A stretch of DNA of 64,000 nt from Capsulimonas corticalis (GCF_003574315.2 NZ_AP025739.1:3100001-3164000), one strand, 5' to 3'; counted from the stretch's first letter, positions 25,826-63,606 are shown. Notes: generated by a model not told the origin, from the letters alone. Made by a program: numbers and translations.

Positions 25826-25854
25826 AACCCACTGTGGCTTTGCCGCGGTGGGTT
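25826..25854 (+). terminator. Hairpin before hsdM, terminator or attenuator
   Basis: AACCCAC (25826-25832) pairs with GTGGGTT (25848-25854); inner GGC/GCC forms a second stem. Followed by CGACTTTTG, a short T-run. Only 26 nt before the hsdM ATG, so it would limit read-through from the upstream gene. Confidence 0.5.
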
Positions 25855-25880
25855 CGACTTTTGAGAAGCGAACTACCCCC

Positions 25881-28349
25881 ATGCCCAAAATCACCCTGCC
25901 GCAATTAGAGCGGCACCTTTATAGCGCTGCTGACATTTTACGTGGCAAAATGGACGCCTCCGAGTTTAAAGAGTATCTCTTCGGGATGCTCTTCCTGAAG
26001 CGCGCCTCCGACGTTTTTGATGAGCGCCGTGAAAAAATCATCGCCGATATGGTGGCGAAGGGGCGCTCTCAGGAAGATGCTGAGAAGCAGGCCGAGAGAT
26101 CAGTACGATATGCTGACACCTTCTTTGTCCCAGAGACCGCGCGCTGGAGTTACATCCGCGACCACTTGCACACTGATATTGGCAACGGGCTGAACAAGGC
26201 TCTTGGTGCACTGGAACAGGCCAATCATTCTATCTCGGGTGTCGTGTCTCATATCGAGTTCAATCGCACTATTGACAACAAACGCCTTATCCCTGATGTG
26301 CGATACCGCAAGCTCATTACGCATTTCTCAAAGAAACGCTTTCGTCTGCGTAATGAGGACTTTGAATTCCCTGATCTTCTCGGCGCTGCATACGAGTTCT
26401 TAGTCAAGCAGTTTGCCGATAGTGCGGGGAAGAAAGGCGGAGAGTTTTACACGCCGCGTGAAGTAGTGCGCTTGATGGTGCGCCTCCTGAAGCCCGAAAA
26501 CGGTATGCAAGTATACGATCCGTGCTGCGGATCGGGCGGCATGCTAATTATTTCACAGCAGTATGTGGAGGAACACGGAGGGGGAAAGCTCCAGTTGTTT
26601 GGTCAAGAGGCAAATGGTGGCGTCTGGGCTATCTGTCGAATGAACATGCTTCTTCACGGTATTCCAGACTCAGATATCCAGAACGAGGATGTGATCGCGC
26701 GCCCCCAGCACGCGGAGGGTGGGGAATTGATGCGCCACGATCGTGTGATTTCCAATCCACCGTTTAGTTTGAACTATGATCCCGATGAATTGACCTTTAG
26801 GGAGCGGTTTCGTCACGGATACGCACCAGCTACGGGCAAAAAGGCTGATCTGATGTTCGTGCAGCACATGTTGGCTGTGCTGAATACAAACGGTATGGTT
26901 GCGACAGTTATGCCGCATGGTGTCTTGTTCCGTAGCGGTGATGAGCAGAAGATCCGTACCAGTATTCTTGATGATGACCAACTGGAAGCCGTGATTGGAC
27001 TGCCGAGTAATTTGTTTTACGGAACAGGTATCCCCGCGTGTATTCTCGTCCTACGAGCCAAGGGTGCTAAGCCTGCCGCACGACGCGGAAAGGTCTTGTT
27101 CATCAACGCGGACGCCGAATTTGCAGCGGGCCGTGCTCAGAATTACCTGCGCCCTGAGCACATCGAGAAGATTGTCACGACATTTGAGGAATTCGAGGAT
27201 GCGTCGCGCTATGCCACAGTAGTCACGCGGGCCGAAATAGCTGCAAATGGTGATAACCTGAATATCCGTCGCTATGCCGACAACGCCTGTCCACCCGAAC
27301 CGCAGGACGTGCGTGCGCATCTTCTTGGTGGTGTGCCAAAAACAGAAGTGGCAGCCGCTGGTCCGCTTCTGATGGCCCAAGGTTTTGATCCCGCAGACCT
27401 CTTTGCGGATCACGATGAAAGGTATCTTGGATTTGTGCCAAGTGTGCGGACGCGCGCAGACGTAGGGCGCATCATTCGCACGAGTTGTGGAGTACAACTT
27501 CAGGAGAAACGCCTGCTCAGTGCTTGCGTTGACTGGTGGGCTGCGCACGAGATGCGTATCCTGTCCTTGCCTGAAACAAAAGACATGATGGTTGCTCGCG
27601 CGGAATTCCTGCAATCGTTTGAGAACTCCCTTGTGCCCATCGGTCTCCTAGATCGCTACGAGACGGCGGGAGTAATCGCATCATGGTGGCAGGAGATGCA
27701 GTTCTCTTTGAAAACACTTCAGGCGTCGGGATTCGCTGGTTTAATGGATTCCTGGGTGGCCAACCTCGAAACCGCTTTGCGCGGTGAAGAAGACGATGGC
27801 GAGGAAACTGACAACAGCAAAAAGAAGAGTACCAATTCCAAATGGGATGTGCCACAGATGGCTGGAGCCGAACGCCTCAAGCGAATTCTGCTTGCTGACT
27901 TACTTCAGGAAATTGCCGAGGCGGAGGCCGCCTGTGACTTGATCGAGTCGCAGATCAAAGCTACTATGAAGCCTAATGACGAAGAGGGGAGTGAAGATGA
28001 CGAAGAGGCCGAGCCGTTAACGGAAGCTGAAATAAAGGCGCTCAAGCGTGAACTCACGGCGTCGAAGAAGCGAGTGAAGGCTTTGGGCGCGGGTGCTGCC
28101 GATTTGGTTGTGTCAACACGAGCTGGCTTGGCCGCGTCTGATCTGCAGAAACTAGCCATTCAAGTCCTACGAGAGGAATTGAATGAAATGCTGTCACGAT
28201 ATGTTCAGGCACGGCGTCAACAGGTGGAACGATTGTTAGAGGCGATGTGGGATAAATATGACACATCACTGACAACACTCACATATCAACGAGTTCAAGC
28301 GGAAACAGCGATGAACAACTTCCTGAGAAATTTAAACTATGTGGACTAA
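25881..28349 (+). CDS. hsdM: Type I restriction-modification DNA methyltransferase subunit
   Basis: 822 aa from the ATG at 25881 (weak ribosome site). HsdM transfers a methyl group from SAM to adenine within the target set by HsdS, and pairs with HsdR for cleavage. N-terminal helical HsdM domain ([36 protein letters not shown]), then SAM motif [13 protein letters not shown] (~residue 212) and catalytic motif IV SNPPF (~residue 292), with [14 protein letters not shown] between. The C-terminal ~260 residues are an acidic coiled-coil extension ([20 protein letters not shown]), making it longer than the classical ~520 aa HsdM. Overlaps hsdS by 11 nt. Confidence 0.95.
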
Positions 28350-29652
28350 GGAACTGCTCGGCGAGGTAGCCACAGTGGAAGTTGGTGGTACCCCAAGTAC
28401 GGATGTGTCTGCGTATTGGGGCGGACAGGTTCCATGGATGGTGTCTGGTGACGTTCACAGAAATCGCGTTGCTCATGTGGATGGGAGAATTACGGAGCTA
28501 GGACTGTCGGCGTCAAACGCCAAAATAATTGATCCTCCCGCTGTTGCAGTCGCTCTTGCAGGTCAGGGTAAGACACGTGGCACGGTCGCATTGACACTTA
28601 TTCCACTCTGTACAAACCAATCTGTCGCACTTATTCGCGGGAAAAGCAACGTGCTCGACACTACCTACTTGTTCCATGATCTGAAAAGTCGGTATGAAGA
28701 GTTACGGGCACGATCATCGGGTGGAGGGCGTGGTGGTTTAACAAAAGCTATACTTGAGGCACTCCCTCTACACCTGCCACCAATCGAGGAGCAACGACGA
28801 ATTGCGAATGTGCTGGACACAAATGATGATCTCATTGCGAAGTCTGCTTCCGTGGTCGCAAAACTCCGCCAACTGAAAACTGGTCTAATGAACGATCTGC
28901 TGATGTTTGGGTTGGCAGACTGCGGGACTGCAGGAAATAATGAGTTGAGGTTCAACGATGTAAACGATCTATCGTTTGATGGAGTAGGAGCGAGCTTTAA
29001 TGTCCCACCGCTTCGCGCTCCGCGAACGCACCCTGAGCAGTTCACAAATTCACATATTGGGCCTCTGCCAAAAGGCTGGGAAATTGTGCGACTACTTGAT
29101 CACGTTGATCTTCCATCAGGTCAAGTAGATCCACGTCAGGCTCCGTACCGCGACTGGCCGTTGATTGGTCCTGATCATATCGAGGGCGGTACAGGGCGGC
29201 TGCTACAAATAAGCACAGCGGCAGAACAGGGGGCCATTAGCGGCAAGTACGTGTTTCAGTCTGGAGATGTCTTGTACAGCAAGATTCGCCCAAATCTTCG
29301 AAAGGTTACTCTTGCGACATTCGATGGGTTGTGTAGTGCGGACATGTACCCAATGCGTCCACGCCCTACGATGGATTCGTATTACCTTCTCATATCACTT
29401 CTTGGAGAGCGATTTTCTCGATTTGCCACAGCCGTTTCTATGCGAAGCGGCTTTCCGAAGATAAACAGGGAGGAGTTAGCGGAATTCATGATCGCCCGCC
29501 CGCCTATTCAAGAGCAGCAGTTGATAGGACAGATAGCGCGAGTACATGATATGCGAATTAGAGCGGAGGAAACGTACCGTGACAAGCTAATCCTTCAAAA
29601 GGAGGGGCTCATGGCTGATCTGCTGACTGGGCTGGTGCGCGTATGCAAGTAA
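28339..29652 (+). CDS. hsdS: Type I restriction-modification specificity subunit
   Basis: 437 aa. Two target-recognition domains, each followed by the conserved helix opener: [15 protein letters not shown] near residue 150 and [16 protein letters not shown] near residue 390. TRD1 starts at [23 protein letters not shown]2 at [20 protein letters not shown]. The two halves give a bipartite DNA target, which cannot be read from sequence. ATG overlaps the hsdM 3' end, so they are translationally coupled. Confidence 0.95.
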
Positions 29653-29675
29653 TCCACAATAAAAGGTAGGACACG

Positions 29676-30245
29676 ATGCGAGTGACGCTCACCGACATCA
29701 AGAACAACGACGCTGAATTCTTCGACCGCGTGCGGAATGCACCTGTATTCATCAGCACTGTGAATCGGCTTGGATTGCAGGTGGATATTGGCATCAGCCA
29801 GCATAATGCAGTGTTCCAGATCTGGAAGCCATCATGGGTTTTGCAGCGACCACCAGGGCATGATCGCACACTGAGAATTCACTTTGAAGCCAAAGACCGC
29901 CGCGAGATGCGCGTTGAAGTCGGTCCTGAACCGTGGATTGCGAGCCTAGACAGTAAGCCCGAGTTACGGGCTACGCTGGTCCCAATGTTGGAGCGAAAGG
30001 CGCGAGTCATAAGTGCATTACGGGGCCGTCTGATAGGGGCTGCTGATATTCCTGCCCAATTTGAGGCCAACACATATCGCTTGCTCGCTCCGACAAACAC
30101 GGCAAGCCACGGTATCGTAAAGTTCTCTGGTTGTGGTTATGGCGATGACCCTTCCGTGGATCAGGCAGCGCGATGGTTTGCACAGGTCATTGAAGTTGTT
30201 ACGCCCATTATTGATTCGGTGGCTGCTCGCCATCAGGAAGGATGA
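29676..30245 (+). CDS. Unknown protein within the type I RM operon (A)
   Basis: 189 aa; AAAGGTAGGA lies just before the ATG. Starts 23 nt after hsdS and ends 4 nt before the next unknown gene, so it is an operon member. N-terminal alpha/beta stretch (TDIKNNDAEFFDRVRNAPVF, VFQIWKPSWVLQRPPGHD) and a middle helical part (LVPMLERKARVISALRGRL); no nuclease, kinase or DNA-binding signature is visible. No membrane segment. Possible accessory or anti-phage partner of the RM system, inferred from position only. Confidence 0.75.
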   Translation: MRVTLTDIKNNDAEFFDRVRNAPVFISTVNRLGLQVDIGISQHNAVFQIWKPSWVLQRPPGHDRTLRIHFEAKDRREMRVEVGPEPWIASLDSKPELRATLVPMLERKARVISALRGRLIGAADIPAQFEANTYRLLAPTNTASHGIVKFSGCGYGDDPSVDQAARWFAQVIEVVTPIIDSVAARHQEG

Positions 30246-30249
30246 GACT

Positions 30250-30822
30250 ATGGCGCTACATGCTTTGACCCAAGCGGATGACATTGCTGCGGCATATCAT
30301 CAGTTGACCGAAGAACTCAAAAACGGCAGCGTACCTTATGAACGTAACGTAGGATGGCGGGGCGGCGGTGAGCAGCATACGGTTCACTGGCATCCTGGTG
30401 CTGGATTGTGGGGATTATCCGCAGTGGCCGTAGATGGCACTGGTTACTGGTTCGCGTTTGGCACGAATGATCCTGCGCAGACAAACCAGTTTGGAAGCAT
30501 CAGCGTGCAGTTCTCGTTCTACAGAGAAGGCGTTTCTCGTCGTTGTGGTGGCGCTTTTGCCTTCAATAATACGAATGGTCAAGTGAACCTGCTGCACAGT
30601 GGTGGAATCGGCGGCGGACGCAACGGAATTAGCAAGACCTCATTTCTCGCTGCGTATAATGGTCCATTGGAAGATATACGCTGGCCGAACGGCGCGACGT
30701 TTCGCTATGTGGACATCGGCTCGCTCGAAGAGCCAGGGTTGATCGGGCGGCTTGCTGCATTCGTTGGCGCAGTCGAGACATTTAAGGCCAGCGTACCTGT
30801 CGCTACAGGAATACCCCATTAA
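30250..30822 (+). CDS. Unknown protein within the type I RM operon (B)
   Basis: 190 aa from the ATG at 30250 (GGAAGG upstream overlapping the previous stop). After a helical lead (LTQADDIAAAYHQLTEELKN) the protein is beta-rich, with many Gly, Asn and aromatics (GGEQHTVHWHPGAGLWGLSA, GTGYWFAFGTNDPAQTNQFG, GGAFAFNNTNGQVNLLHSGG). It lacks a signal peptide and known motifs. Sits 4 nt after protein A and 92 nt before hsdR. Function unknown; the tight pairing with A suggests they work together. Confidence 0.75.
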   Translation: MALHALTQADDIAAAYHQLTEELKNGSVPYERNVGWRGGGEQHTVHWHPGAGLWGLSAVAVDGTGYWFAFGTNDPAQTNQFGSISVQFSFYREGVSRRCGGAFAFNNTNGQVNLLHSGGIGGGRNGISKTSFLAAYNGPLEDIRWPNGATFRYVDIGSLEEPGLIGRLAAFVGAVETFKASVPVATGIPH

Positions 30823-30914
30823 CAACAGAACGGCGCGCCGCCTGAAGGCAAGAGCGTGATGAGGTCAGAGAGGGGTTAACACGCCTCCCTGAAACGGTCG
30901 ATAGCAGAGGAAAT

Positions 30915-33900
30915 ATGCTGACAGACTTCCAAGAGGAGAATTATGTCGAGAGGCCGTTCATCGCTCAGCTTACCGCGATGCAACCGCTCGGCTGGCAACA
31001 CATTGAGGGCGATATATATGTCCCCGATGTGACCGAACGGCCCGATTTCGGAGCAGTCCTGCTTGAAGGCCGCCTGCGAGACGCCATCAAGCGGATCAAT
31101 CGTGACGAGAGCGGCCAAGAGTGGCTTGATGACGTTCGAGCTACCCGAATGGTCGGAGCACTGTCCCGTCTGGGGCAGCACAAATTGATGGAGGCAAACG
31201 CCGTTGCCACGAATCTTTTGCTGTTGGGCTATCCCGTTGAAGGCGATCCAGCCCAGCACGGAGCAGGGCGAAGCGTTACAGCGCGTTTTATTGACTTCGA
31301 GAACCCAGCGAACAACGACTTCCTCATCATCAACCAGTTCCGCGTAGATGTTCCAGGCGGTCGCAACTATATCATTCCCGACCTCGTGATGTTCGTGAAC
31401 GGCATCCCACTCGTGGTAATTGAATGCAAGTCCCCGAGCATCACCAATCCGATAGAAGCAGGTATTACGCAACTACTCCGTTATTCCAATCAACGCGATA
31501 GCGACGATGAAGGCGCTGAGAGACTATTCCATTACTCACAGCTCCTCGTTTCAACATTCTTTGACGAGGCGCGTGTAGGCACAGTAGGGGCGGGCTACGA
31601 GCACTTCTTGGAATGGAAGGATACATATCCCGCGCCCACTGCACAGGTCGTCACAGATATGGGCATCAGTAGGCTCTCAAGCCAGCAAATGCTAGGCGAG
31701 GGTATGCTTTCCCCCAACAATTTACTGAATATCGTCAAAAATTTCATGGTGTTCTCGGAAGCGGGCGGTAAGGTAATCAAGATCGCACCTCGGTACCAGC
31801 AATACCGCGCCGTCGAAAAGGCTGTCCATCAACTCGAACATGGACAGACACGCACGCAACACGGTGAGACCGACCAGCGCGGCGGCATCGTATGGCATAC
31901 GCAAGGCTCTGGTAAGAGTCTGACGATGGTCTTTCTGGTACGGAGAATGCGTGCAATTCCTGCTCTGCGTCGATTCAAAATCGTTGTCGTGACCGACCGC
32001 ACCGATCTGGAAAAGCAACTTAAGGGGACAGCGCAACTTACTGGCGAAAACGTGCGTTCCGCCCGCGGCGTCAAAGCCATTGAGACTTTGTTGTCTGCGC
32101 CTGGCGCGGATCTCGTATTTGCGATGATCCAGAAATTTCGTGACACTGAGGGATCGGATGATCAAGCCGCCGAGATTGACTCGGACGAGGCGGATGGTCG
32201 TGACGACATTGAGACCGCGACAGCACTTTATCCAGAACTGAACCCATCCGAGCACATCGTGGTCCTTATCGACGAAGCTCATCGCAGTCAAACAACAAGC
32301 CTTCATGCTAACCTTCGTCGGGCTTTGCCGAATGCCACCTTCATCGGGTTTACTGGGACGCCAATTTTGATGGGCCTGGCAAAGCGAACACATGAGATTT
32401 TCGGCCCGTACATCGACCGATATACAATCAGGCAATCCGAGCAAGATGGCGCGACTGTTCGCATTTTGTATGAGGGCTATGACGCTGGGGCTTTCATCAA
32501 AGACGACAAGACGCTCGATGACCTTGCGGACGAACTATTCGGCCACTTGTCAACCGCAGAAAGGGAACGCGCTACTGCGCGGTACGCCCGTGTCGAGACG
32601 GTGCTGGAAGCAACCAATCTGATTGCAGCGAAGGCCGATCATGCATTGCGCCACTATGTTGACACCGTACTACCGAACGGTTTCAAGGCCCAGATCGTGG
32701 CGGTAAGTCGCCTCGCCGCCGTGCGGTTTCAGCATGCTCTCGTAGCCGCTCAGAGGAAGCTCGTATCAGAGATTGACGGCCTCTCCGATGATCTGCTTAT
32801 CTTGTCCGAAACGGAACGGAGCAGTCTCACAGATCACGTTCAGCAGATTCTCCGTGCTCATCCACATCGCAACACTATCGCTGGTCTTGAATTCGCCTCA
32901 GTAATTTCCGCAGGGGATCAAAATGACCCGAAAGATTGGGCGGAATGGACAGAGGCGGCGCGTCAAGCTCAACATATTGCCCGCTTCAAGAAGCCGCTTC
33001 GTACAGCAACAAGTGATCCCGCCAAAACCGACCCTCTCGCCATTCTTGTAGTTAAATCCATGTTGCTTACAGGGTTTGATGCGCCAAACGAGCAGGCGCT
33101 GTACCTCGACCGCAAGATGGTCGGTGCGGAATTGCTTCAGGCCATCGCGCGGACGAATCGTACCGCACCGCGAAAAAAGCATGGGCTTATCGTGGACTAT
33201 CGTGGCATTGTAGAATTTCTTCGGCGCGCCGTGGCGGTGTACAGCGCAGAGGACATGGAAGACATCCGTGCAGGGATCGTAAGTATAAAGGATACCCTGC
33301 CCACTCTGGCAGATCGCCATCGCCGTGTAATCGCGATCTTCTCCGAGCGGAACGTAAGCGACATCTCGAACGTGCGCGCTGCTGTAGATGTGCTTGCCGA
33401 TCCCCGAGTACGTGCCGACTTCTCAGTGAAATATAAGGATTTCCTGGAAAGTCTGGATATCGTTCTTCCACGCCCCGAAGCGCTGCACTTTAATGCCGAT
33501 GCGCGTACACTCGGTGTTATCAATCAGATGGCTCGAAACCTTTACCGCGATCCCCAATTAATGCTGGTCGGAGCGGGACAGAAGGTGCGTGACCTGATCG
33601 ATCAGCATGTGTACGCGATGGGCATCGACCCGAAGGTGCCTCCAATCTCAATTTTGGATCTCGGCTTTGATGCCGCAGTCGCCGCGCAACCATCCGCAAA
33701 GACGCAGGCATCGGAGATGGAGCACGCGGCCCGCTATCATATAACCAGCAAGTACAATGAAGACCCGTCCTATTACAAGCGGCTTTCCGAACGGTTGGAA
33801 GAGATCCTAGCACACTTTGGCGAGAACTGGGATGCGCTTGTGGAGGCGCTACGCCAATTCACCGCTGACGTGCGGGAGGGATGCCCGCAAGATCAATCAG

Positions 33901-34217
33901 GTCTCGACCCACGAACTCAAGCCCCGTTCTTGGGAGTGCTACTTGAAGAGACTGGGGGGAGTGATGGCGGGGATGATAGCATTCGTCGCTATGCTGAGCC
34001 GACCGTGGAGCTGGTGGAAGTGATCCGCCGCCATTTGCGTCAAGCGGGTTTTTGGAGGTCGGAATATGCACAGCGGGTTCTTCACGGTGAGATTACCGTA
34101 TACCTGGATGATCACGAGCTAATTCCTATAGACCATCAGGAGCGTGTTGCCGACCGCTTAGTGGCGCTATCCCGCACACTTCACGCACGGCTAGTCGCTG
34201 AGCAAAGTGGGGACTAA
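30915..34217 (+). CDS. hsdR: Type I restriction endonuclease R subunit
   Basis: 1100 aa, normal for HsdR. ATP-driven DNA translocase and nuclease of the type I complex. The N-terminal PD-(D/E)xK nuclease core is NYIIPDLVMFVNGIPLVVIE followed by CKS (acidic pair and Lys near residues 155-170). Helicase motifs: Walker A WHTQGSGKSLTMVF (~residue 328), Walker B LIDEAHRSQ (~residue 451), motif III FIGFTGTPI, and motif VI-like QAIARTNRTAPRK. Start ATG preceded by GAGG at a distance. Its stop is immediately followed by the metallopeptidase gene. All key residues appear intact. Confidence 0.96.
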   Translation: MLTDFQEENYVERPFIAQLTAMQPLGWQHIEGDIYVPDVTERPDFGAVLLEGRLRDAIKRINRDESGQEWLDDVRATRMVGALSRLGQHKLMEANAVATNLLLLGYPVEGDPAQHGAGRSVTARFIDFENPANNDFLIINQFRVDVPGGRNYIIPDLVMFVNGIPLVVIECKSPSITNPIEAGITQLLRYSNQRDSDDEGAERLFHYSQLLVSTFFDEARVGTVGAGYEHFLEWKDTYPAPTAQVVTDMGISRLSSQQMLGEGMLSPNNLLNIVKNFMVFSEAGGKVIKIAPRYQQYRAVEKAVHQLEHGQTRTQHGETDQRGGIVWHTQGSGKSLTMVFLVRRMRAIPALRRFKIVVVTDRTDLEKQLKGTAQLTGENVRSARGVKAIETLLSAPGADLVFAMIQKFRDTEGSDDQAAEIDSDEADGRDDIETATALYPELNPSEHIVVLIDEAHRSQTTSLHANLRRALPNATFIGFTGTPILMGLAKRTHEIFGPYIDRYTIRQSEQDGATVRILYEGYDAGAFIKDDKTLDDLADELFGHLSTAERERATARYARVETVLEATNLIAAKADHALRHYVDTVLPNGFKAQIVAVSRLAAVRFQHALVAAQRKLVSEIDGLSDDLLILSETERSSLTDHVQQILRAHPHRNTIAGLEFASVISAGDQNDPKDWAEWTEAARQAQHIARFKKPLRTATSDPAKTDPLAILVVKSMLLTGFDAPNEQALYLDRKMVGAELLQAIARTNRTAPRKKHGLIVDYRGIVEFLRRAVAVYSAEDMEDIRAGIVSIKDTLPTLADRHRRVIAIFSERNVSDISNVRAAVDVLADPRVRADFSVKYKDFLESLDIVLPRPEALHFNADARTLGVINQMARNLYRDPQLMLVGAGQKVRDLIDQHVYAMGIDPKVPPISILDLGFDAAVAAQPSAKTQASEMEHAARYHITSKYNEDPSYYKRLSERLEEILAHFGENWDALVEALRQFTADVREGCPQDQSGLDPRTQAPFLGVLLEETGGSDGGDDSIRRYAEPTVELVEVIRRHLRQAGFWRSEYAQRVLHGEITVYLDDHELIPIDHQERVADRLVALSRTLHARLVAEQSGD

Positions 34218-38188: not shown

Positions 38189-38872
38189 ATGTGCAACCGT
38201 TTCAACATCTCAGTCAGTGCCCAGGAAGTGGCCGATTTCTTCGGTATTCAGTTGACCTTGGGCGACGCCGCGAACTCCATGCCCAACTACAACGTGGCAC
38301 CGACGCAGACAATCGCCACTGTCGTGGAACACAACGGCGAGCGGGTGCTGGACGCGATGCGCAGGGGATTTATTCCGTCGTGGGCCAAGATGCAGTCGAA
38401 AATCCTCGCCACCAATGCGATCAGCGAAGAGATCGCGGGCAAACCACTCTATCGTGGCGCGTGGAAAGCGCGCCAGCGGTGTCTTGTTCCAGCCACGGGT
38501 TTCTTCGAGTGGCGCGGCGCTGTCGGCGACAAGCAGCCGATCAACTTCCGCGTGAAGGACCAAGAAATCTTCGGCCTGGCGGGTATCTACGACCGCTGGA
38601 TCGATCCTACGACCGATCAGGTCATCTGGTCATGTGCGATCCTGACGACGGCGCCGAACGATCTTGTCTCCCATATCCACAACCGCATGCCCGTGATTGT
38701 TCATCGCGACGACGAAGCCGATTGGCTCAGTTCCTCCACCACGGCTGATCAGGCGCTCTCAATCTGTCGCCAATACGCCGCCGACGCCATGTACGGATTC
38801 TTGGTGGATCGGCGCATGGGGAATTCGAAGTGGAACACGGACGAGTGCATCGTGAGCGTGGGAGAATTGTGA
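38189..38872 (+). CDS. SRAP-domain DNA-protein crosslink protein (YedK/HMCES family)
   Basis: 227 aa. SRAP proteins trap abasic sites in single-stranded DNA by a thiazolidine link to Cys2 and protect them. Here Met-Cys2 starts the chain; also seen are NYNVAPTQT (residues 33-41), RGFIPSWAK, ATGFFEWRG with the catalytic Glu, and HNRMPVIV with the His. All four key elements are intact. Often SOS-linked, which matches the SOS-type cassette at 39.7-45 kb, though no LexA box is visible before it. Confidence 0.93.
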   Translation: MCNRFNISVSAQEVADFFGIQLTLGDAANSMPNYNVAPTQTIATVVEHNGERVLDAMRRGFIPSWAKMQSKILATNAISEEIAGKPLYRGAWKARQRCLVPATGFFEWRGAVGDKQPINFRVKDQEIFGLAGIYDRWIDPTTDQVIWSCAILTTAPNDLVSHIHNRMPVIVHRDDEADWLSSSTTADQALSICRQYAADAMYGFLVDRRMGNSKWNTDECIVSVGEL

Positions 38873-39755: not shown

Positions 39756-42700
39756 TCATCGATAACTCCGCGCCCCAGTCCGCGCCACCTCGACTAATTC
39801 CTGGCGGCTCTCAACGCTCTCCGCTGGGCGGAAATCCTTGATGCTCAGCGGCCACGCCTTTTCCACCTCCATCGAACACCCATAACCTTTGCGCACCATC
39901 TTCCCTCGCACGATCACCGCAGGAGACAATAAAATCGTGGCCATGTTGTTCTCAATCGCGTCATTGTAAAACGCGGTCTGCATATACGCCGATTCATCCT
40001 CGATAGTCGTGAAGAGAAATCTTCCGCCAGCCTTATTTGGCGGCCTATGAGGTCGGATGTTCAAGCCCGCCACAGTCGCCCTGTACCCCGTTTTTAGCTG
40101 CATCGCTTCGTGCGCAGTAATGATGCCTCGCGCCGCCAGCGACTGTCTCAGATGAGCAAACGGATGACAACTCGTGGTCACCGAGATGATCCGCCATTCC
40201 CAGAGCAGTTTATCCCAGTCGCTGAAATCCTCGATTTCCCAGGCTATTGGTGTGGCGTCCGCGCCGACCATGCGGAGTTCTAGGCGCTGTTGTGAACTGC
40301 TCGTGGTGTCGGCGCGGATCGCCTGGGCTTTGGCGATGGTTTCATTCAGCCGCCAAATGAGGCCGCGCCGATTGTAATCATGAAGGTCGTCGAACGCGCC
40401 GCACAAGATCAAGCTCTCAAGCAGATCGCGGCGAAGTGGAACACGCACGCAGAAGTCGAGGAGGCTGCGGTAGGCGCCACTTTCTCTCTGTGCCAAGATA
40501 GCATCCACGTCCTCGTTGCGGATGCCGCTGAGCAGACAAAATCCAATGCGGATCGAGATCGCCTGGTCGTCCGTGGTGCAGGCCAAGGCGCTTTCGTTGA
40601 TGCTTAGCGGGAGGATTTGCGCTCCGCGCCGCCGTGCCTCGGCTGCAATTGATTGTGGAGCGTAGAACCCGCAGGGAGTATCGCTGCTCATGAGCGCGGA
40701 GTAATACTGGATCGGACGATGACAGATCATGTAAGCCGTTTTCTGCGCGGTGAGGGCGAATGACGCAGAATGGGACTCGGTGAAGCCCAAGGAACCCCAT
40801 CCCTCCAGTTCATCCATGATCTTGTGTGCGTTTTCAAGAGAAAGGTCGCGGTGCACGTAACACGCTCGCTTCACAAAACTCTGCCGCGCCTGCCCCATCG
40901 TTCCGAAACGCGCGTGTTTAGCCAGTTGCTTACGCCAAACTTCGGCCTGGGCGTCGTTAATGTTCAGCATGGCTGCGATGATGTAGCTGACTTGTTCCTG
41001 GAAGCAACACACGCCGTAAGTCCGCCCAAGGATCGGCTCCAATGCTGGATGGAGATATTCGATTCTTGAGTACCCATTACGCGCCGCGACGTATTTCTTG
41101 ACAGCCCGCGCTTTTATTGGACCTGGTCTTATAAGTGCAATCGCGGCCACAGTGTGCTCAAAATCGCTTGGATGAAGCTGGGTTGCGAGAGCAGCCTGAG
41201 CAGGGGAACCGAGTTGAAATGCCCCCATGTTTGCGCCGCTCCACAGCATGCGGTAAGTCGCTTGGTCCTCGCGTGGAATGGTGTCGTATTGGAAGTTTGC
41301 ATCCGACCGCTGGATGTCGCGCTCAGCGTCTTTCACGACTGCGAGTATGGGCAAGGAGAGAATGTCGAGCTTCACACTACCAGCGGTCTCAACATCATCC
41401 TTGTCCAACATCACAATGGGCAATACACCGCGCGCCGAAGGCGTAACCACATTCAAGTTGGAGAGAGGAAGGCCACTAATCACCAACCCAGAGCTGTGTG
41501 AACCCATGTGTCTCGGGTGTCCTGCGATTTTGCTGCACAAGTCAAAGAGCTGTTCAAATCTCTTAGTTAAAGATGCGTAAGCGCGAAGCTCAGGGTTTCG
41601 TTGAAACGATTCGGCGATCTTACTAGCATCGGCAAATCCCGAGATATGGCGCGTGAACCACGCTAGGGCTTGTGGCGGCAACGCCAATGCTTTACCGACA
41701 TCTCGCAACGCACCTTTTGCGTGATATGTTGCGTATGTATTACAAAGCGCCACATTCTCCTCGCCGTAAGTTCGTGCAACCCAGCGGAACACATCATCAC
41801 GCCGCCGCGCTTCGAAGTCGATGTCTACATCTGGGCGTTTTCCAACGGACAAAAATCTCGCGAAAGGCAATCGTCTTTCGATCACATCGACATCTGTCAA
41901 ATTTAGTCCGTACATCACAATTGAATCAGCAGCAGAACCACGTCCAGTCACCGTGATCCCTTCACCCCGCGCCCACTGCACAATTCTGGCCGCATGAAGT
42001 ACGTAAGATGAATAGCCCAGCATGTCGATCACGGTCAGCTCTTCATTCAGCCGTCTGCGTACCTGATCAGGAAGTCCACGATATCGCCGTGTAGCGCCGC
42101 TAAAGGCGAGGTGTCGGAGATGTTGCGCCACTTCTATGCCCCCTGGCGTCGGATAGGCAGGAGTGATTTCTTCCCCAAGCGGCATGATCCCGTCGCCGCT
42201 GCACTGTTCAGCGATCATCATCGAACTGGCGATAGCTTCAGGACACCAGGCGAACAGATCGCACATCTCTTGCGCTGACTTCATCCTCCGCTCTGAATTG
42301 AAGGGCCTGGCGATATGGTTGTCGGCCACCGTGATCCCCATGGAAATGCAGCGCTTGATGTCGTGGGCGATCATTCCATCGCTGGTGGCGTAGTGGACGT
42401 TGTTCGTTGCAACGCAACGCGCTCCGATCCGCCGCGCCATAAGGACCAACTCGTGGCAGACTCTGGTGGCATGTGGGGTGCTGTCGTCTTGCAGCTCGAT
42501 GAAGAGATCGGCGCCGAAAATCGCCTTGAGTTGTCGCGCAATTTCAAGCGCGTCGTTGTAGCGATGATCGCGAATGAGCGAACTGATTTTTCCTTGTCTA
42601 CATCCTGTGAGACAGATCACCCCTTCGGTGTGAAGACCAAGCTGATCCCACGGCAGAGCTGGCGTGAGGCGACCGCCGATGGCGTACGCGGTGGACAGTA

Positions 42701-42968
42701 AGCGGCAGATATTTCCGTAGCCCGTGCGGGACTTGGCGAGTAGGGTCAGGTGACTGCCGTCGCTCATTGTGACTTCGGTTCCGTAGATCGGCTTTATGCC
42801 GTACTGCTCGCAAACTTCGTGAAACTTGACTGCGGCGGTGAGCGTGTTGTGATCGGTGATTGCCAGAGCAGGCATGCCAAACAGCGCCGCCTGACGGACA
42901 AGTTCTTCTATTGTGGATGCGCCATCGAGGAATGAATATGGCGAATGGCAGTGCAGTTCTATATACAA
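39756..42968 (-). CDS. dnaE2: Error-prone DNA polymerase III alpha subunit
   Basis: 1070 aa from a TTG at 42968, chosen because GGAGG lies 5 nt upstream and the upstream imuB stop is 10 nt away, so the N-terminus reads LYIELHCHSPYSFLDGAS as in DnaE2 proteins; a frame start at 43013 overlaps imuB. DnaE2 does mutagenic translesion synthesis with ImuB. The PHP domain has HCHSPYSFLDG and ITDHNTL; the polymerase palm has PDVDIDFE near residue 380, with RGSAADSIVMY and GRTYGVCCFQEQVSYI (tail of the fingers). An OB fold follows (ATVAGLNIRPHRPP). Ends at the shared terminator. Second gene of the LexA-boxed operon. Confidence 0.94.
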   Translation of the reverse strand: MYIELHCHSPYSFLDGASTIEELVRQAALFGMPALAITDHNTLTAAVKFHEVCEQYGIKPIYGTEVTMSDGSHLTLLAKSRTGYGNICRLLSTAYAIGGRLTPALPWDQLGLHTEGVICLTGCRQGKISSLIRDHRYNDALEIARQLKAIFGADLFIELQDDSTPHATRVCHELVLMARRIGARCVATNNVHYATSDGMIAHDIKRCISMGITVADNHIARPFNSERRMKSAQEMCDLFAWCPEAIASSMMIAEQCSGDGIMPLGEEITPAYPTPGGIEVAQHLRHLAFSGATRRYRGLPDQVRRRLNEELTVIDMLGYSSYVLHAARIVQWARGEGITVTGRGSAADSIVMYGLNLTDVDVIERRLPFARFLSVGKRPDVDIDFEARRRDDVFRWVARTYGEENVALCNTYATYHAKGALRDVGKALALPPQALAWFTRHISGFADASKIAESFQRNPELRAYASLTKRFEQLFDLCSKIAGHPRHMGSHSSGLVISGLPLSNLNVVTPSARGVLPIVMLDKDDVETAGSVKLDILSLPILAVVKDAERDIQRSDANFQYDTIPREDQATYRMLWSGANMGAFQLGSPAQAALATQLHPSDFEHTVAAIALIRPGPIKARAVKKYVAARNGYSRIEYLHPALEPILGRTYGVCCFQEQVSYIIAAMLNINDAQAEVWRKQLAKHARFGTMGQARQSFVKRACYVHRDLSLENAHKIMDELEGWGSLGFTESHSASFALTAQKTAYMICHRPIQYYSALMSSDTPCGFYAPQSIAAEARRRGAQILPLSINESALACTTDDQAISIRIGFCLLSGIRNEDVDAILAQRESGAYRSLLDFCVRVPLRRDLLESLILCGAFDDLHDYNRRGLIWRLNETIAKAQAIRADTTSSSQQRLELRMVGADATPIAWEIEDFSDWDKLLWEWRIISVTTSCHPFAHLRQSLAARGIITAHEAMQLKTGYRATVAGLNIRPHRPPNKAGGRFLFTTIEDESAYMQTAFYNDAIENNMATILLSPAVIVRGKMVRKGYGCSMEVEKAWPLSIKDFRPAESVESRQELVEVARTGARSYR

Positions 42969-42978
42969 ATTGCCTCCG

Positions 42979-44430
42979 CTAATCCGCCGTCGCCCGCAGA
43001 CGCCACTCATCACCGATCTTGTGCAGTTCGAATGTTCCGTGAGGTTCAGTCATCACGCGAAACGCATCCACTTCAGCAATCTTGCCCCAGGACCACGTTG
43101 ACGATCTCCACTGGTCGATCACCCGAACAATCTCATATCGCCCGCCGTCGTAGGCTGAGCGCCCTGAACGGCTGTATCGAAGTGGCCGTCCATATTGGTC
43201 CATGGAGACCCGCACGCGCTCATCGCGGCGCTTGGTAAGGGCGTGGGTCCAAAGATTCAACTTTGACGACTTGAGCAGAAGCGAGCCCGTCACCACCGAG
43301 GCTGGCCCGTATCGTTTTCGGAGCGTCCGCATCTCGGCTTCCAGGCTGATCTTCCTTTCATGAGCGAAGCTGTCCGAGTTGTTCGCCGTGTCCAAGAGCG
43401 TTAGCTGAACGCTTCCACCAGCGTCGATTCCTGTCACCGCCACGGAAATCTCTACCACGGGTTTCTGTAGCCAAAGTCGCGCCAGGAGTCTGTTCGCGGT
43501 ACGCAGCAACGTCGCCGCGTCGTGAGATGGCGAGTAAAGGTGTTCATTTTCATGAACGAACGACTGATCATCGGCCTTGATCGTGAGCGCGACCGTGCGG
43601 CAGTATTTTCCGCCGCGTTGGAGGTCGAAGGCGATCTTGACTACGCATGCCTGCAACGCCTGCGCGATGATCTCATCGTGCCGAACCTCGTCATCGAAGA
43701 CATGTCGGTGTTCGATCTTCTGTTGCGGCCACAACGCCTTCACTGGATCGCTGTCCTCCCCGATGGCCAGCCGCCGTAGCTTTAGCGCCATCTGCTTATT
43801 GACCTGACGCTCCAACTCAGGCGCAGGGATTTTACGGATGTTGCCGATGGTCGTGACGCCCAGCTTCCCGAGCCGCTGGATGAGTTTGGCGTCCACGCCA
43901 GGGAGAAAATCCACGGGGAACTGAGCCAGCAAGTACGGTTCGTGACTTTGCTCGATCACTTCAACATGAACCTGGGCATCGCGGTCCTGGGGCTTCACCA
44001 TCGCCGCTGCGTGCGCGACCAGCTTAGAACTTCCCAATCCTACCGAGATCGGAACGCCGATCTTGTCGGCGATGGTCCTGGCGAGATGCTGCACGCGGCC
44101 AGCAATGTCGGGTCCATCAAACTCGGCGTAATACAGTTCGGGATTGATCGGTTCAACTGAGTTTGTCTCTACGGCGATAACATCCCAAATCGCTTCAGCG
44201 GTTTCTGCATAGGAAGCCTGGTCATATGGTAGCACGATCAGGCCCTGGCAGAGCGCGCTGGCGGTAGATGTCGATAAACCTTTGGATATCCCCATCGACC
44301 TTGCCTCCGCCGATGCGCACCTTACGGCTCCGTCCGCCGTCGCCAAGACAATCGGCTGTCCAATAAGGTGCGGAAGCCGCGCTCGTTCACACGCGATCCC
44401 GATAACTTCCATGCGGATACACACGATCAT
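42979..44430 (-). CDS. imuB: ImuB-like Y-family polymerase homologue (probably catalytically inactive)
   Basis: 483 aa; GGAGG 8 nt before the ATG. Overall Y-family: VLATADGAVRCASAEARSMG, palm/fingers, VGLGSSKLVAHAAAMVKP, helix-hairpin-helix FLPGVDAKLIQRLGKLGVTT and a little-finger region. The metal-binding positions are changed: the N-terminal VDMD element reads CIRME, and SIDEA-FLD reads NPELYYAE, so the usual acidic triad is lost as in ImuB. A QLTLLD sequence near residue 343 looks like a beta-clamp binding motif. ImuB acts as a hub linking DnaE2 to the clamp. Directly precedes dnaE2; preceded by a LexA box and strong promoter. ImuA is not seen. Confidence 0.82.
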   Translation of the reverse strand: MIVCIRMEVIGIACERARLPHLIGQPIVLATADGAVRCASAEARSMGISKGLSTSTASALCQGLIVLPYDQASYAETAEAIWDVIAVETNSVEPINPELYYAEFDGPDIAGRVQHLARTIADKIGVPISVGLGSSKLVAHAAAMVKPQDRDAQVHVEVIEQSHEPYLLAQFPVDFLPGVDAKLIQRLGKLGVTTIGNIRKIPAPELERQVNKQMALKLRRLAIGEDSDPVKALWPQQKIEHRHVFDDEVRHDEIIAQALQACVVKIAFDLQRGGKYCRTVALTIKADDQSFVHENEHLYSPSHDAATLLRTANRLLARLWLQKPVVEISVAVTGIDAGGSVQLTLLDTANNSDSFAHERKISLEAEMRTLRKRYGPASVVTGSLLLKSSKLNLWTHALTKRRDERVRVSMDQYGRPLRYSRSGRSAYDGGRYEIVRVIDQWRSSTWSWGKIAEVDAFRVMTEPHGTFELHKIGDEWRLRATAD

Positions 44431-44478
44431 TTCTCAATCCTCCATGTCCTATTGTTCCTAAATGGTGGTAGACATGTG

Positions 44479-44519
44479 ATTATAGTAGACGTATTGTGCT
44501 TTTGTCAAACGTTTGTTCG
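44479..44519 (-). promoter_or_regulatory. LexA box and promoter of imuB-dnaE2
   Basis: Minus strand: CGAACAAACGTTTG (44519-44506) fits the palindromic LexA site CGAAC-N4-GTTCG at 9 of 10 fixed positions and overlaps -35 TTGACA (44508-44503); -10 TATAAT (44484-44479) after 18 bp. Repressor binding would block polymerase. Confidence 0.88.
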
Positions 44520-44617
44520 ATTAGTAGGGCAATTTACGGTTGTAGTGAAGAGTGATTTACAGTTGGGGCTTTTACGGCAGAGATTGTGTGGCTATGGGTT
44601 GAAAGGAAGAAACAAAA

Positions 44618-44660
44618 ATCGCCCCAGGGGGCAGAGGGGCACCTCAATCCCTGGGGCGAT
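44618..44660 (-). terminator. Rho-independent terminator between the two SOS transcripts
   Basis: Perfect 12-bp stem ATCGCCCCAGGG/CCCTGGGGCGAT (44618-44629, 44649-44660) with TTTTTG following on the minus strand. Ends the 124-aa gene's mRNA 51 nt past its stop. Confidence 0.87.
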
Positions 44661-44710
44661 CTTTCGTCTCATAATGGGTAAATCGGATGACCGAAGTGGG
44701 CTAGGCAACG

Positions 44711-45085
44711 TCACGCATCTGCATCTTCATCGTCTTCTTCATCGAGATTGTCGAAGAAGCCTTCAAAATCTCGCATATAATAACGTTCTTCATCTTGCAG
44801 ATCGACATTTTGGCCCTTACGTGCTCTTTGAGCCATGCGTTTGAGCTGATCGGCCACCATGTCAGCTTCATCAGGACTGTAGGCTTCCATAAAAATGAGC
44901 GGCGCTTTTTGACCTGGCTCAGAAGGCTCGCCAGAAAGCGTGAGAATGACCCTGCGCTTGTGTGGTTTCAGCATGAAGCTGCCCACGGACTTCACTATGC
45001 CATCCATCGAGTCCAGCTCGTCCTCCCATTCTGGGCCAAACAGATTTCCGATGTGTGGGGGTGCTGTCGTGATGGTCTCGCTCAT
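44711..45085 (-). CDS. Small acidic protein with its own LexA box
   Basis: 124 aa from the ATG at 45085 (AAGGAG 10 nt upstream; an earlier ATG lies within that ribosome site). N-terminal half has a beta-type stretch (SFMLKPHKRRVILTLSG, PLIFMEAYSPDEADMVADQL), then a basic helix (LKRMAQRARKGQNVDLQDE) and a strongly acidic tail (GFFDNLDEEDDEDADA). No known domain recognised. It is monocistronic: its own LexA box and promoter upstream and a terminator downstream, head-to-tail with imuB-dnaE2. As ImuA is missing, this may be the accessory SOS protein here, by inference from regulation only. Confidence 0.8.
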   Translation of the reverse strand: MSETITTAPPHIGNLFGPEWEDELDSMDGIVKSVGSFMLKPHKRRVILTLSGEPSEPGQKAPLIFMEAYSPDEADMVADQLKRMAQRARKGQNVDLQDEERYYMRDFEGFFDNLDEEDDEDADA

Positions 45086-45117
45086 AGTGCGTCGTCTCCT
45101 TGATTTCAAGTAGCACT

Positions 45118-45157
45118 ATTATATTGGCGGTTTCAGGATTTGTCAAACACTTGTTCG
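45118..45157 (-). promoter_or_regulatory. LexA box and promoter of the small acidic gene
   Basis: Minus strand CGAACAAGTGTTTG (45157-45144) overlaps -35 TTGACA (45146-45141); -10 TATAAT (45123-45118) after 17 bp. Same architecture as the imuB promoter, 9 of 10 fixed LexA positions. Confidence 0.88.
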
Positions 45158-45205
45158 TAAGACGGGCGTCATACCACATTTCGCTATTTTGCTACTTAAA
45201 AAAAT

Positions 45206-45250
45206 GACACTATTGACACTATTGACACCATTGACGCAAAAGTGTATAAT
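45206..45250 (+). promoter_or_regulatory. Promoter with 9-bp direct repeats upstream of RHH gene
   Basis: GACACTATT, GACACTATT, GACACCATT run head to tail (45206-45232) and overlap -35 TTGACA (45222-45227); -10 TATAAT (45245-45250) after 17 bp. Likely operator repeats for autoregulation. An AGGAGG at 45263-45268 precedes the ATG. Confidence 0.82.
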
Positions 45251-45276
45251 GTGAAAAATTGCAGGAGGATCATCTT

Positions 45277-45936
45277 ATGGCAGCAAACGGATACGTTCAT
45301 TGGGCCGTCGTCCACAACATCGTTATTCAAGCGAATCACCCAGTGAATGGGGTTATGCAGACGGTGGAATTGTTTGTGACCAATGTCCCTCAAGACCTCG
45401 AATATCAAATCGTGAAGGATACGATAGAACAAGCAGGTTATTTTTTTGGAGATTCTGGGGTGAGGTGGGGTAACTATCAGATCGTTCCTGATAAAGATTG
45501 GATTACTGGATGGGAGCATGAATTCACCTACCCAAACAAAACAAAAATTTCATACGATGAGCTTCTTGAGCAGAGCAAAATCGAAAAGCGAATAACTCTT
45601 CGACTACCACCAATAATTCACAATTATTTGGCGTATTCAGCCTCTTTGACGAATTCGTCATTGAACCAGTTGATCACTGAAATATTAGGAGATTGGCAGC
45701 AAGACAAGATGCGAGCACAGGTGAATCGATTTGAGATTTCAGTTCGCCATGAGATTCAATCATATATGAATTATTTGGAAGCAATATCGCTCGGTGGACC
45801 GCGTGATGATCTCAGGGCACACCGTGACGCCATAATGAATGCTTATGACGCATACAAAGATGCTTGTAGGGGGGCGAATATACAACCTGACCCTGATGTA
45901 CTGGTGTATATACCTACCTCAATGCGGTCTGAGTAA
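45277..45936 (+). CDS. HicB-like protein with ribbon-helix-helix domain
   Basis: 219 aa; AGGAGG 8 nt before the ATG at 45277. Residues ~100-140, KIEKRITLRLPPIIHNYLAY and NSSLNQLITEILGDW, match the Arc/HicB-type ribbon-helix-helix DNA-binding region. The N-terminal ~90 residues (YVHWAVVHNIVIQANHPVNG, MQTVELFVTNVPQDL) and the C-terminal helical tail are not recognised. Probably binds the 9-bp repeats at its own promoter. No HicA toxin gene is adjacent. Confidence 0.72.
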   Translation: MAANGYVHWAVVHNIVIQANHPVNGVMQTVELFVTNVPQDLEYQIVKDTIEQAGYFFGDSGVRWGNYQIVPDKDWITGWEHEFTYPNKTKISYDELLEQSKIEKRITLRLPPIIHNYLAYSASLTNSSLNQLITEILGDWQQDKMRAQVNRFEISVRHEIQSYMNYLEAISLGGPRDDLRAHRDAIMNAYDAYKDACRGANIQPDPDVLVYIPTSMRSE

Positions 45937-47903: not shown

Positions 47904-48148
47904 AGCATTCCTTGGGCAGCTCGTGGCTGCTGTGTAATGCTATGTAGTCGTGCTTATTTCTGGAAAGCGCACATGGTGAGGCCGACTATCTTGTCGGATG
48001 ATTGTCAGCCTGAAAGACTTGGAGCGGCCAGAGCCGAGTAGGTCGTATCAAAGGATGCGGGGATTTTTGTTGCGGGGTGGGGAAGAGCATTAATTAGGCC
48101 AGCCCATAGCGAAAGATTCTCTGCCTCCGCGAGCTGGCCCAAAAGCGA

Positions 48149-48562
48149 TTATTCAGCCGTTACTTCCGCCGCAGCCGCAGCCATCTCCGCCTTGGTGCGG
48201 CGCCGTCGCTTCGTAGTACCGCTTCCTGCCAGCGAAGCGATCAAAATTCCATCAGCCTCTTCAAAGTTGCCTTCGATTCCGCCTTCTACAGGAGCAATTC
48301 CAAAACGCTGGAACAGCTTCTTTGCCGTGATTTGTTGTTGGATTCCGCGACCGCGCCGAGAAATCTTGAATGCGGTTTTGTCGCCATCCGTAGCGGGTGC
48401 GATGGCAATCACATTACGGTCGGCGTCATAGCCGAGTTTGACAGCGGCTCCATCAGGAAGTTTTCCTTGACCCTGCTCAGAGAGCACTATGGTCGATTTT
48501 GAGATTTTATAATCTGTTTGTTGGGCTGTGGGAGCGGTTGCTGTGGCATACCATTCGATTGG
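48149..48562 (-). CDS. Hypothetical protein with basic Ala-rich tail
   Basis: 137 aa from the ATG at 48562 (AAGGA 11 nt upstream; an ATG at 48577 is an alternative). Core beta-rich (YKISKSTIVLSEQGQGKLPD, NVIAIAPATDGDKTAFKISR), ending in GTTKRRRRTKAEMAAAAAEV, a basic-then-alanine tail typical of nucleic-acid binding small proteins. I do not recognise the family. Confidence 0.6.
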   Translation of the reverse strand, partial: PIEWYATATAPTAQQTDYKISKSTIVLSEQGQGKLPDGAAVKLGYDADRNVIAIAPATDGDKTAFKISRRGRGIQQQITAKKLFQRFGIAPVEGGIEGNFEEADGILIASLAGSGTTKRRRRTKAEMAAAAAEVTAE

Positions 48563-48808
48563 CATATGTTTATACATCCTTACATTTGGGTTTGAACTTG
48601 CGTGGTTAAAGCGCTGTCGGCTATTATACCGCGTGGAATTCATAAGATTGGCCTTTGAAGAATGAAAAATCAATGCCTTACGACATTCTTTTTCACGCGA
48701 GCATCACTTCAGGGAGGAATGTAGAGATTTAAAATGGAACGTATGTTTCATCGTAGATGGACGACACGTGCAATCACAACAATAACAAAGAAACCTTAGA
48801 GAAGAATA

Positions 48809-49045
48809 ATGGCTCGGATTATTGCACGTATCTACGTTGAAGGAAAGCCCCTGAATCAGATTGAGTCAGAAATCCGCCGTGCTCTCATTCAGGCCAACGT
48901 CGTTCAGGTGGAATGGACTTATATTTCAGAAGCCATCATTAATAAACCGCATGAAGATAAAGAAGCCGTGGCGAATTGGGCGGATATCACGTTTCCAAAG
49001 CGGTGGACATTTTTAAACGATGATATTATTATCGATCAGAGATAA
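48809..49045 (+). CDS. Small hypothetical protein
   Basis: 78 aa; AGAGAAG precedes the ATG by about 6 nt. MARIIARIYVEGKPLNQIES, then EWTYISEAIINKPHEDKEAV. Soluble, mixed alpha/beta. No motif recognised. Probably same transcript direction as the 65-aa gene 144 nt later. Confidence 0.5.
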   Translation: MARIIARIYVEGKPLNQIESEIRRALIQANVVQVEWTYISEAIINKPHEDKEAVANWADITFPKRWTFLNDDIIIDQR

Positions 49046-49189
49046 TCGTGATCGTGTGTGTTGATAGTGCCCTCACAGATAATATGATAGTCATTGAACA
49101 TAGGCCATAGGACACACTTCGATGTCCACAGAAATCTCGCGTATAAAATCAAACACTGGCGTTTCACACGCTCCAAAGGAAACTCAACC

Positions 49190-49387
49190 ATGGCATTTTC
49201 AGCAAAGAGCAAGAAATCAGGCATCGAATACTTTCTTCACGCGCGCACAGCCGCGAACGGCAAGACGAAGCTCTATTACTTCGCCAAGAAAGTGAAGGAC
49301 GGGGCTGTCGATGCGCTGCCAGAAGGCTATGAAATTTCGGAGAATGCTCTCACGGGATTGCCAATGTTGAAGAAGAAGCTGGGGTAG
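49190..49387 (+). CDS. Small conserved-looking protein
   Basis: 65 aa from the ATG at 49190 (AAGGAAA 8 nt upstream). MAFSAKSKKSGIEYFLHART and KLYYFAKKVKDGAVDALPEG, ending TGLPMLKKKLG. Short proteins of this layout (basic, YYF.KK.KDGAVD.LPEGYE) occur in several phyla with unknown function. Followed by a 21-bp terminator-like hairpin. Confidence 0.65.
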   Translation: MAFSAKSKKSGIEYFLHARTAANGKTKLYYFAKKVKDGAVDALPEGYEISENALTGLPMLKKKLG

Positions 49388-58906: not shown

Positions 58907-58984
58907 TGGCTCTTGTGTATCTCCAACGTGTGCTAACAACAATTTCGCATTGAATTTTCATGTTCGATATGATGAGATTGCTTG

Positions 58985-60415: not shown

Positions 60416-60505
60416 CTTGCTACCTTGCTAAAAATGCGGATTCATAAGTATGCATGCCATGATAATGAGCGCTTGTAGGGGTGAAGGTTCTGAAAGAACA
60501 GATGA

Positions 60506-62905: not shown

Positions 62906-63010
62906 ATTAATACCGACTTTCTGAGGTTAGCGTAAGGATCGCTCGCATGATAATAGCACATCCCCATCCCGATTTTTATTACGACTGTAGATCAACGATG
63001 CGGCATGCCG

Positions 63011-63340
63011 CTATTCTTCAATCCGAATATCCATAAACGTGTTGAATCGGTCTAACTTTAAAACCCGCTCAGGCTGAGATTTGGGACGTGCAATGACATG
63101 CATTTTACCATCAATATAGGTCACTTTATGGAAATAAAGCAGAACAGCCAGACCCGCGCTGTCAATAAAATGCACGTTTCGAATATCGACGATGATCGTT
63201 TCTGCGGAAGTGCTCGCCGCAGTTTGAGTAACACTCTGTTGAATGGACTGGGCGTTGGTAAGATCGAGATCACCTTCGATGGTGAATTTGAGTATACGGC
63301 CCTCATCGAGCACGTCTTGGGTAAGGTTGATGTGCTGCAT
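63011..63340 (-). CDS. STAS anti-sigma factor antagonist (RsbV/SpoIIAA-like)
   Basis: 109 aa from the ATG at 63340, giving the family's usual length. Single STAS domain with TIEGDLDLTNAQSIQQSV and phosphorylation site HFIDSAGLAVLL (Ser61). When dephosphorylated by the SpoIIE phosphatases nearby it would bind the RsbW-like kinase at 58985, freeing its target. First gene of the three, 105 nt before the phosphatase gene. Confidence 0.92.
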   Translation of the reverse strand: MQHINLTQDVLDEGRILKFTIEGDLDLTNAQSIQQSVTQTAASTSAETIIVDIRNVHFIDSAGLAVLLYFHKVTYIDGKMHVIARPKSQPERVLKLDRFNTFMDIRIEE

Positions 63341-63606
63341 TTCAATTGGAGTTCCTAGGTGAAGGGGAGCTTTATAACATACCCAAGAACGACAAGTGTT
63401 ACCCAAGAACGCCGTTGATGCTTTAGGATGCCGTTCAACTTGGCAATGCGGGCCATCCATCCTTCTCGATCGAGTAGACGACGCGCGACAGACTGGCGCT
63501 CGTACCTGGAACCATTGGCATCAGCACGGCCTCTTATGGACATGTCCTGGTCTACTCTGAACTACATGACGCCGAGCCGCCGCTGGGCCTAACCGAACGG
63601 GATCAT

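Follow-up and report, generated by a model that had tools for sequence, protein, structure and literature searches.

The question raised by this locus is how ImuB and DnaE2 function without ImuA, and whether a small acidic protein encoded beside them has a part in it. The locus lies in a stretch of 64,000 nucleotides of the Capsulimonas corticalis genome, referred to here as the window, and reads leftward as a gene for a 124-residue acidic protein, a terminator, imuB and dnaE2, followed by a convergent SRAP gene (Table 1). The explanation that we favor as a whole, with a probability of roughly 0.55, is a LexA-controlled, island-borne translesion cassette that lacks ImuA and is accompanied by a co-induced accessory acidic protein.

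Table 1. Features of the window cassette and positions of the other intact cassettes in the genome.
Feature	Position	Strand	Basis or remark
Acidic 124-residue gene	44711-45085 with stop (44714-45085 without)	-	ATG at 45085; ORF call
imuB	42979-44430	-	Y-family; PF00817, PF11799; alignment; RecA-NT comparison
dnaE2-type error-prone DNA polymerase III alpha subunit	39756-42968	-	PHP, DNA_pol3_alpha, finger and HHH domains
imuB-dnaE2 unit (intact cassette, window)	39756-44430	-	
Intact imuB-dnaE2 cassette, L003	7270-11940		
Intact imuB-dnaE2 cassette, L017	3708-8400		
Intact imuB-dnaE2 cassette, L018	5730-10416		
SRAP (YedK/HMCES-type) gene	38189-38872	+	PF02586, E 1.8e-55; convergent with dnaE2
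Acidic-gene promoter: LexA-type box CGAACAAGTGTTTG fused to TTGACA-17-TATAAT	45118-45157	-	box 45144-45157
imuB-dnaE2 promoter: LexA-type box CGAACAAACGTTTG fused to TTGACA-18-TATAAT	44479-44519	-	box 44506-44519
Intrinsic terminator between acidic gene and imuB promoter	44610-44672	-	-37.1 kcal/mol, z -6.7, T-rich tail
Low-GC island, part inside window	16000-64000	.	continues to ~73.2 kb in window coordinates; tyrosine and serine recombinases

ImuB contains the domains of the Y-family fold (PF00817, E 5.7e-20; PF11799, E 4.5e-14). Read from the alignment, the catalytic carboxylate motifs (MDxD..., SxDE) are absent, and IRMEVIGIACER and YAEFDGP are found instead. A clamp-like motif, QLTLLD, and a C-terminal conserved tryptophan and end resembling the ImuB-C tail were called by eye. 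A RecA-NT-like motif, SLEAEMRTLRKRYGPASVV, occupies residues ~357-384, and the best match in ImuB to the N-terminus of the host RecA is HERKISLEAEMRTLRKRYGPASVVTGSL, a modest match whose score was reached by 45 of 5000 shuffles. Scans of GTDB and IMG/VR with ImuB returned nothing close. The product of the adjoining gene is a DnaE-type C-family polymerase, present as a second copy and in the same operon as imuB, as expected of DnaE2. Its identity to the chromosomal DnaE is no more than 30%, and its match to the NCBIfam error-prone model is below the cut-off (697 of 939 bits). The gene probably starts with the TTG at 42968, 10 nt after imuB, because this codon aligns with ATG in a second copy of the cassette described below; an alternative GTG at 43013 would overlap imuB. 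No LexA box was seen upstream of the SRAP gene. The whole genome has seven matches to PF02586, some of them truncated, and several adjoin imuB-dnaE2 cassettes.

The acidic gene and the imuB-dnaE2 unit have closely matched promoters. A LexA-type box of the form CGAACnnnnGTTTG is fused in each to a perfect TTGACA-17/18-TATAAT promoter, such that the box overlaps the TTGACA; both promoters are 12/12 for sigma-70, and the spacer is 17 or 18 nt long. The boxes, CGAACAAGTGTTTG and CGAACAAACGTTTG, are identical at 12 of 14 positions and are of the Gram-positive type, CGAAC-N4-GTTYG. The bare pattern CGAACNNNNGTTYG is not enriched genome-wide, with 22 matches compared to 57 for the reversed control, and box counts were rejected as evidence on their own since the control exceeds the real count. 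Box, -35 and -10 are found combined at exactly four sites in the 7.65 Mb genome (control, none): the promoters of both acidic genes and of two imuB genes, one pair in the window and one at 6.99 Mb. At this second locus the box, -35, -10 and RBS are all conserved and the flanks have diverged, the acidic promoter region (45055-45230) being 63% identical overall between the copies. The window terminator is rated strong and is followed by a U-run; at the second locus a hairpin persists in the same interval with a weaker U-run. The genome encodes lexA (TIGR00498), which is separated from a divergent LysM/YneA-like gene by an interval with the same type of box; this type of box therefore agrees with the LexA of the host. 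The paired boxes, each overlapping a -35, the terminator between the two units and their LexA-type co-regulation had all been proposed by a sequence-only reading of the window, and stand on this evidence. We infer from the promoter sequences that both would be bound by LexA and induced by damage. A scan of IMG/VR for the composite promoter found six stretches, none of them followed closely by a recognizable relative of the acidic gene or of imuB.

Two further observations concern neighboring promoters. A 283-residue gene adjoining lexA (L008 2506-3357, minus strand) has a LexA-type box ~60 nt upstream (C1:3491318) and no match in Pfam or NCBIfam; its product may belong to the SOS regulon as a DNA-repair protein. 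A third perfect TTGACA-17-TATAAT promoter, at 45222-45250 on the plus strand and without a LexA box, sits within a repeated attgacac stretch just ahead of a HicB-like gene (45259-45936).

The genome contains four intact imuB-dnaE2 cassettes and the remnants of a degraded fifth (5.499-5.506 Mb). Two of the four, in the window and at 6.99 Mb, carry the acidic gene. Upstream of the cassette at 5.48 Mb is a gene for an XRE-type regulator, and the boxed promoter of this cassette has CATAAT as its -10. The cassette at 6.34 Mb has two SRAP genes upstream and lies close to genes for a phage integrase and an SU10-type adaptor; neither cassette has an acidic gene. Two of the cassettes are on clear islands and a third is beside phage-type genes. 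The window island runs from ~16 kb to ~73 kb, where it ends in tyrosine and serine recombinases; near 16 kb GC content drops from ~0.64 to 0.53, and near 72 kb it is back at ~0.6. A 60-bp direct repeat of tRNA-Val(CAC) flanks the island at 6.99 Mb, which is ~105 kb long; adjoining the repeat is a gene that by eye is tyrosine-integrase-like. The two islands have scattered blocks in common, of 67-99% identity, and are otherwise heavily rearranged. At 6.99 Mb the SRAP gene is again at the matching place (L003 12712-13395), and imuB is 88% identical to that of the window. The SRAP neighbor, the second whole copy of the cassette and the island context had not featured in the sequence-only reading.

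Compared with the island at 6.97-6.99 Mb, window positions 48097-49378 are 93.5% identical and 58979-63803 are 98.8% identical, while the cassette is 78% identical, which suggests a recent exchange of parts between the two islands. Along the cassette, dS rises from 0.47 in the acidic gene to 0.87 in imuB and 1.42 in dnaE2. The window island also carries type I restriction-modification genes at 25848-34217 (hsdM 25848-28349, hsdR 30915-34217, and a likely hsdS in the interval), and its sister at 6.99 Mb has a restriction-modification set of its own, type I by eye.

The acidic protein has a pI of 4.3, with 29 D/E and 13 K/R residues. Its paralogue in the 6.99 Mb cassette, 3.8 Mb away, is 89% identical; H11 to G52 are the same in both and the tail FEGFFDNLDEEDDEDA is kept. 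Differences between the two ORFs amount to 25% at third and 2.5% at second codon positions, and dN/dS between the copies (NG86) is 0.12, compared with 0.08 for imuB, 0.09 for dnaE2 and 0.10 for the SRAP gene. Judged from the comparison of the two copies, the ORF is a real protein gene under selection, because dN/dS is about 0.12, the differences are biased by codon position, and the promoter and RBS have been kept while the flanks have diverged.

The protein belongs to no Pfam, PHROG or NCBIfam family. With the limit relaxed to E 10, Pfam gave only unrelated DUFs (E 0.07-0.1), and NCBIfam gave no match at E up to 0.01. Homologues outside its own genome were not found among phylum-level genomes, GTDB contigs, plasmids, phages, IMG/VR or PDB sequences. 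One match in a phylum genome (E 0.0098) is a 38-residue piece of an open frame of 829 codons and was treated as chance, and the phage matches were at chance level. The full-length AlphaFold2 model (pLDDT 49) is too poor for use. For the core, residues 26-95, a beta-beta-beta-alpha arrangement is predicted from the single sequence with pLDDT 76; its best Foldseek match has E 0.08 (VIA Z 6.2), and only generic half-PH-like matches were obtained, so the fold is uncertain.

ImuA was not found, either adjacent to the window cassette or anywhere in the genome, using PF00154, NF033429 and a Rhizobium ImuA query. The case for its absence is good but not absolute, because the NCBIfam control is weak: NF033429 passed its cut-off in 0 of 14 control genomes and has limited sensitivity. 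ImuB is present (E up to 1e-30) in 23 of 291 genomes of the phylum, probably Armatimonadota, and in the remaining 22 of these, as here, ImuA was not detected; weak matches to the ImuA query occur in four phylum genomes, none of them among the 23. By these searches, ImuB-DnaE2 without ImuA is usual in the phylum. No comparable acidic ORF was found upstream of imuB on the same strand in the phylum loci inspected. Variants without ImuA have been described in which the Y-family protein has a RecA-NT-like motif, and in which RecA may serve in place of ImuA (PMC6511836).

The sequence-only reading had taken ImuA to be missing, and this was borne out, including by the genome-wide search for an imuA elsewhere. 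It had also offered the acidic protein as a candidate replacement, that is, a structural subunit that ImuB-DnaE2 would require for activity. Such a role would suit the negative search for ImuA in the genome, the matched promoters, and the position of the acidic gene upstream of imuB, where imuA is usually found. However, other ImuB-DnaE2 cassettes inspected in the phylum and two in this same genome have neither ImuA nor the acidic protein, and the protein has no resemblance to RecA or ImuA: it has no RecA-like domain in Pfam or NCBIfam, and its best score against the RecA N-terminus is 12, against 24 for ImuB. We conclude that it is not a required substitute for ImuA, because these loci lack the acidic gene and ImuB has the RecA-NT-like motif. 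By analogy with the described variants (PMC6511836), it is more likely that RecA fills the role through this motif. Replacement of ImuA is thus a reading that is neither needed nor favored, and we consider it very unlikely. In the homologue and co-occurrence check put forward by the sequence-only reading, both acidic genes were found to lie beside imuB-dnaE2 (2/2), which supports co-occurrence; two of the four cassettes and the inspected phylum loci have no acidic gene. Because of these absences, the mutasome in general does not depend on the acidic gene.

Alternatively, the protein might be a small partner that binds the C-terminal tail of the Y-family protein, analogous in position to UmuD or YolD. 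Like umuD and yolD, its gene is small, appears SOS-controlled and lies just upstream of a Y-family gene, and the predicted core is beta-rich. Against this, there is no family-profile match to UmuD or YolD, nor to DinI, in Pfam or NCBIfam, and ImuB already ends in an ImuB-C-like region of its own, so that we regard the analogy as improbable. That the acidic protein is a standalone ImuB-C was considered and is not supported.

The main rival is that the acidic gene, also SOS-induced, does a separate job for the island (host takeover, anti-restriction or DNA mimicry, excision control, or a checkpoint) and is merely a neighbor of the mutasome operon. Co-regulation and adjacency are no proof of a shared complex, and it may be such a gene: its promoter and terminator are its own, other imuB loci lack it, and the islands carry type I restriction-modification genes and recombinases. 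On the other hand, it is still linked to imuB-dnaE2 in both copies despite the heavy rearrangement of the islands, and the rare promoter design is common only to it and imuB. A division inhibitor in particular is unlikely, because the LysM/YneA-like gene divergent to lexA, with a LexA box between, already looks like a division checkpoint. An independent function is possible, if on balance doubtful.

We therefore return to a co-induced accessory, tuning either RecA or the mutasome, as the likeliest role for the acidic protein. A place among SOS or mutasome-associated components is plausible, although the accessory role taken on its own must be considered tentative. DNA damage would lead to RecA filaments and cleavage of LexA, whereupon both twin promoters would fire, one yielding ImuB-DnaE2 and the other the acidic protein, whose separate production would allow its dose to differ from that of the polymerase. 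ImuB, as a dead Y-family scaffold, would bring the error-prone polymerase DnaE2 to the clamp, and RecA, bound via the RecA-NT-like motif of ImuB, would probably take the place of ImuA. The acidic protein, with its small predicted beta-beta-beta-alpha core and a negatively charged, putatively amphipathic tail (FEGFFDNLDEEDDEDA), might then contact the RecA filament or the mutasome in the manner of DinI, timing or limiting mutagenesis; this is the weakest step. The cassette would be cargo of integrative islands, with the SRAP gene nearby. More speculatively, the acidic proteins of these two islands in one genome could represent an undescribed SOS-induced family whose acidic tail serves to regulate the RecA filament or an ImuB-DnaE2 mutasome without ImuA, allowing islands to control mutagenesis of the host. 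Cassettes that have the acidic partner and cassettes that do not occur together in one genome as natural variants; none of them has ImuA and their promoters are matched, so that how ImuB and DnaE2 function without ImuA is testable by gene deletion.

The cassette resembles the ImuA-ImuB-DnaE2 cassettes of Caulobacter, Pseudomonas and Mycobacterium (imuA'-imuB/dnaE2) in its LexA-type control, its inactive Y-family ImuB with a clamp-like motif, its use of DnaE2 as the polymerase and the arrangement of imuB-dnaE2 as one operon. It differs in having no ImuA, and so is not the complete form, in the extra acidic gene with its own twin promoter, and in being island-borne, with four cassettes in this one genome. 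In E. coli, the small acidic protein DinI is controlled by LexA and modulates RecA. Like DinI, the acidic protein is small, has an acidic C-terminal part and is encoded by a monocistronic gene with a LexA-type promoter; there is no detectable sequence match to it or to any other RecA modulator, binding to RecA is here only putative, and it is in acidity, size and regulation only that a DinI-like role is suggested.

Mutagenesis genes are known on mobile DNA, as with mucAB and rumAB on plasmids and ICEs. The imuABC genes have been transferred with symbiotic genes, in the part of that report available (PMC4151985). All are error-prone polymerase genes on mobile DNA, but here an ImuA-less cassette with an orphan acidic gene is found on chromosomal islands. 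A single host can thus receive several SOS mutagenesis cassettes by way of islands, a point of relevance to the way in which mobile DNA raises evolvability.

In the available part of the account of SRAP-linked SOS neighborhoods (Aravind et al. 2013, PMC3765255), a SRAP gene adjoins imuB-dnaE2 as it does here, and no such acidic gene was found; here, the SRAP gene is convergent and has no visible LexA box. Also comparable are the ImuA-less PolY-DnaE2/ImuB-C variants (Timinskas and Venclovas 2019, PMC6511836), in which, so far as the available sections go, imuA is absent from both operon and genome, a RecA-NT-like motif suggests RecA binding, and such an acidic partner was not found. ImuB-C is standalone there; here it seems to form part of the Y-family protein, as it does in classical ImuB. 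ImuB-DnaE2 without ImuA is therefore known, and what is new is an island-borne cassette with an orphan, co-regulated acidic partner.
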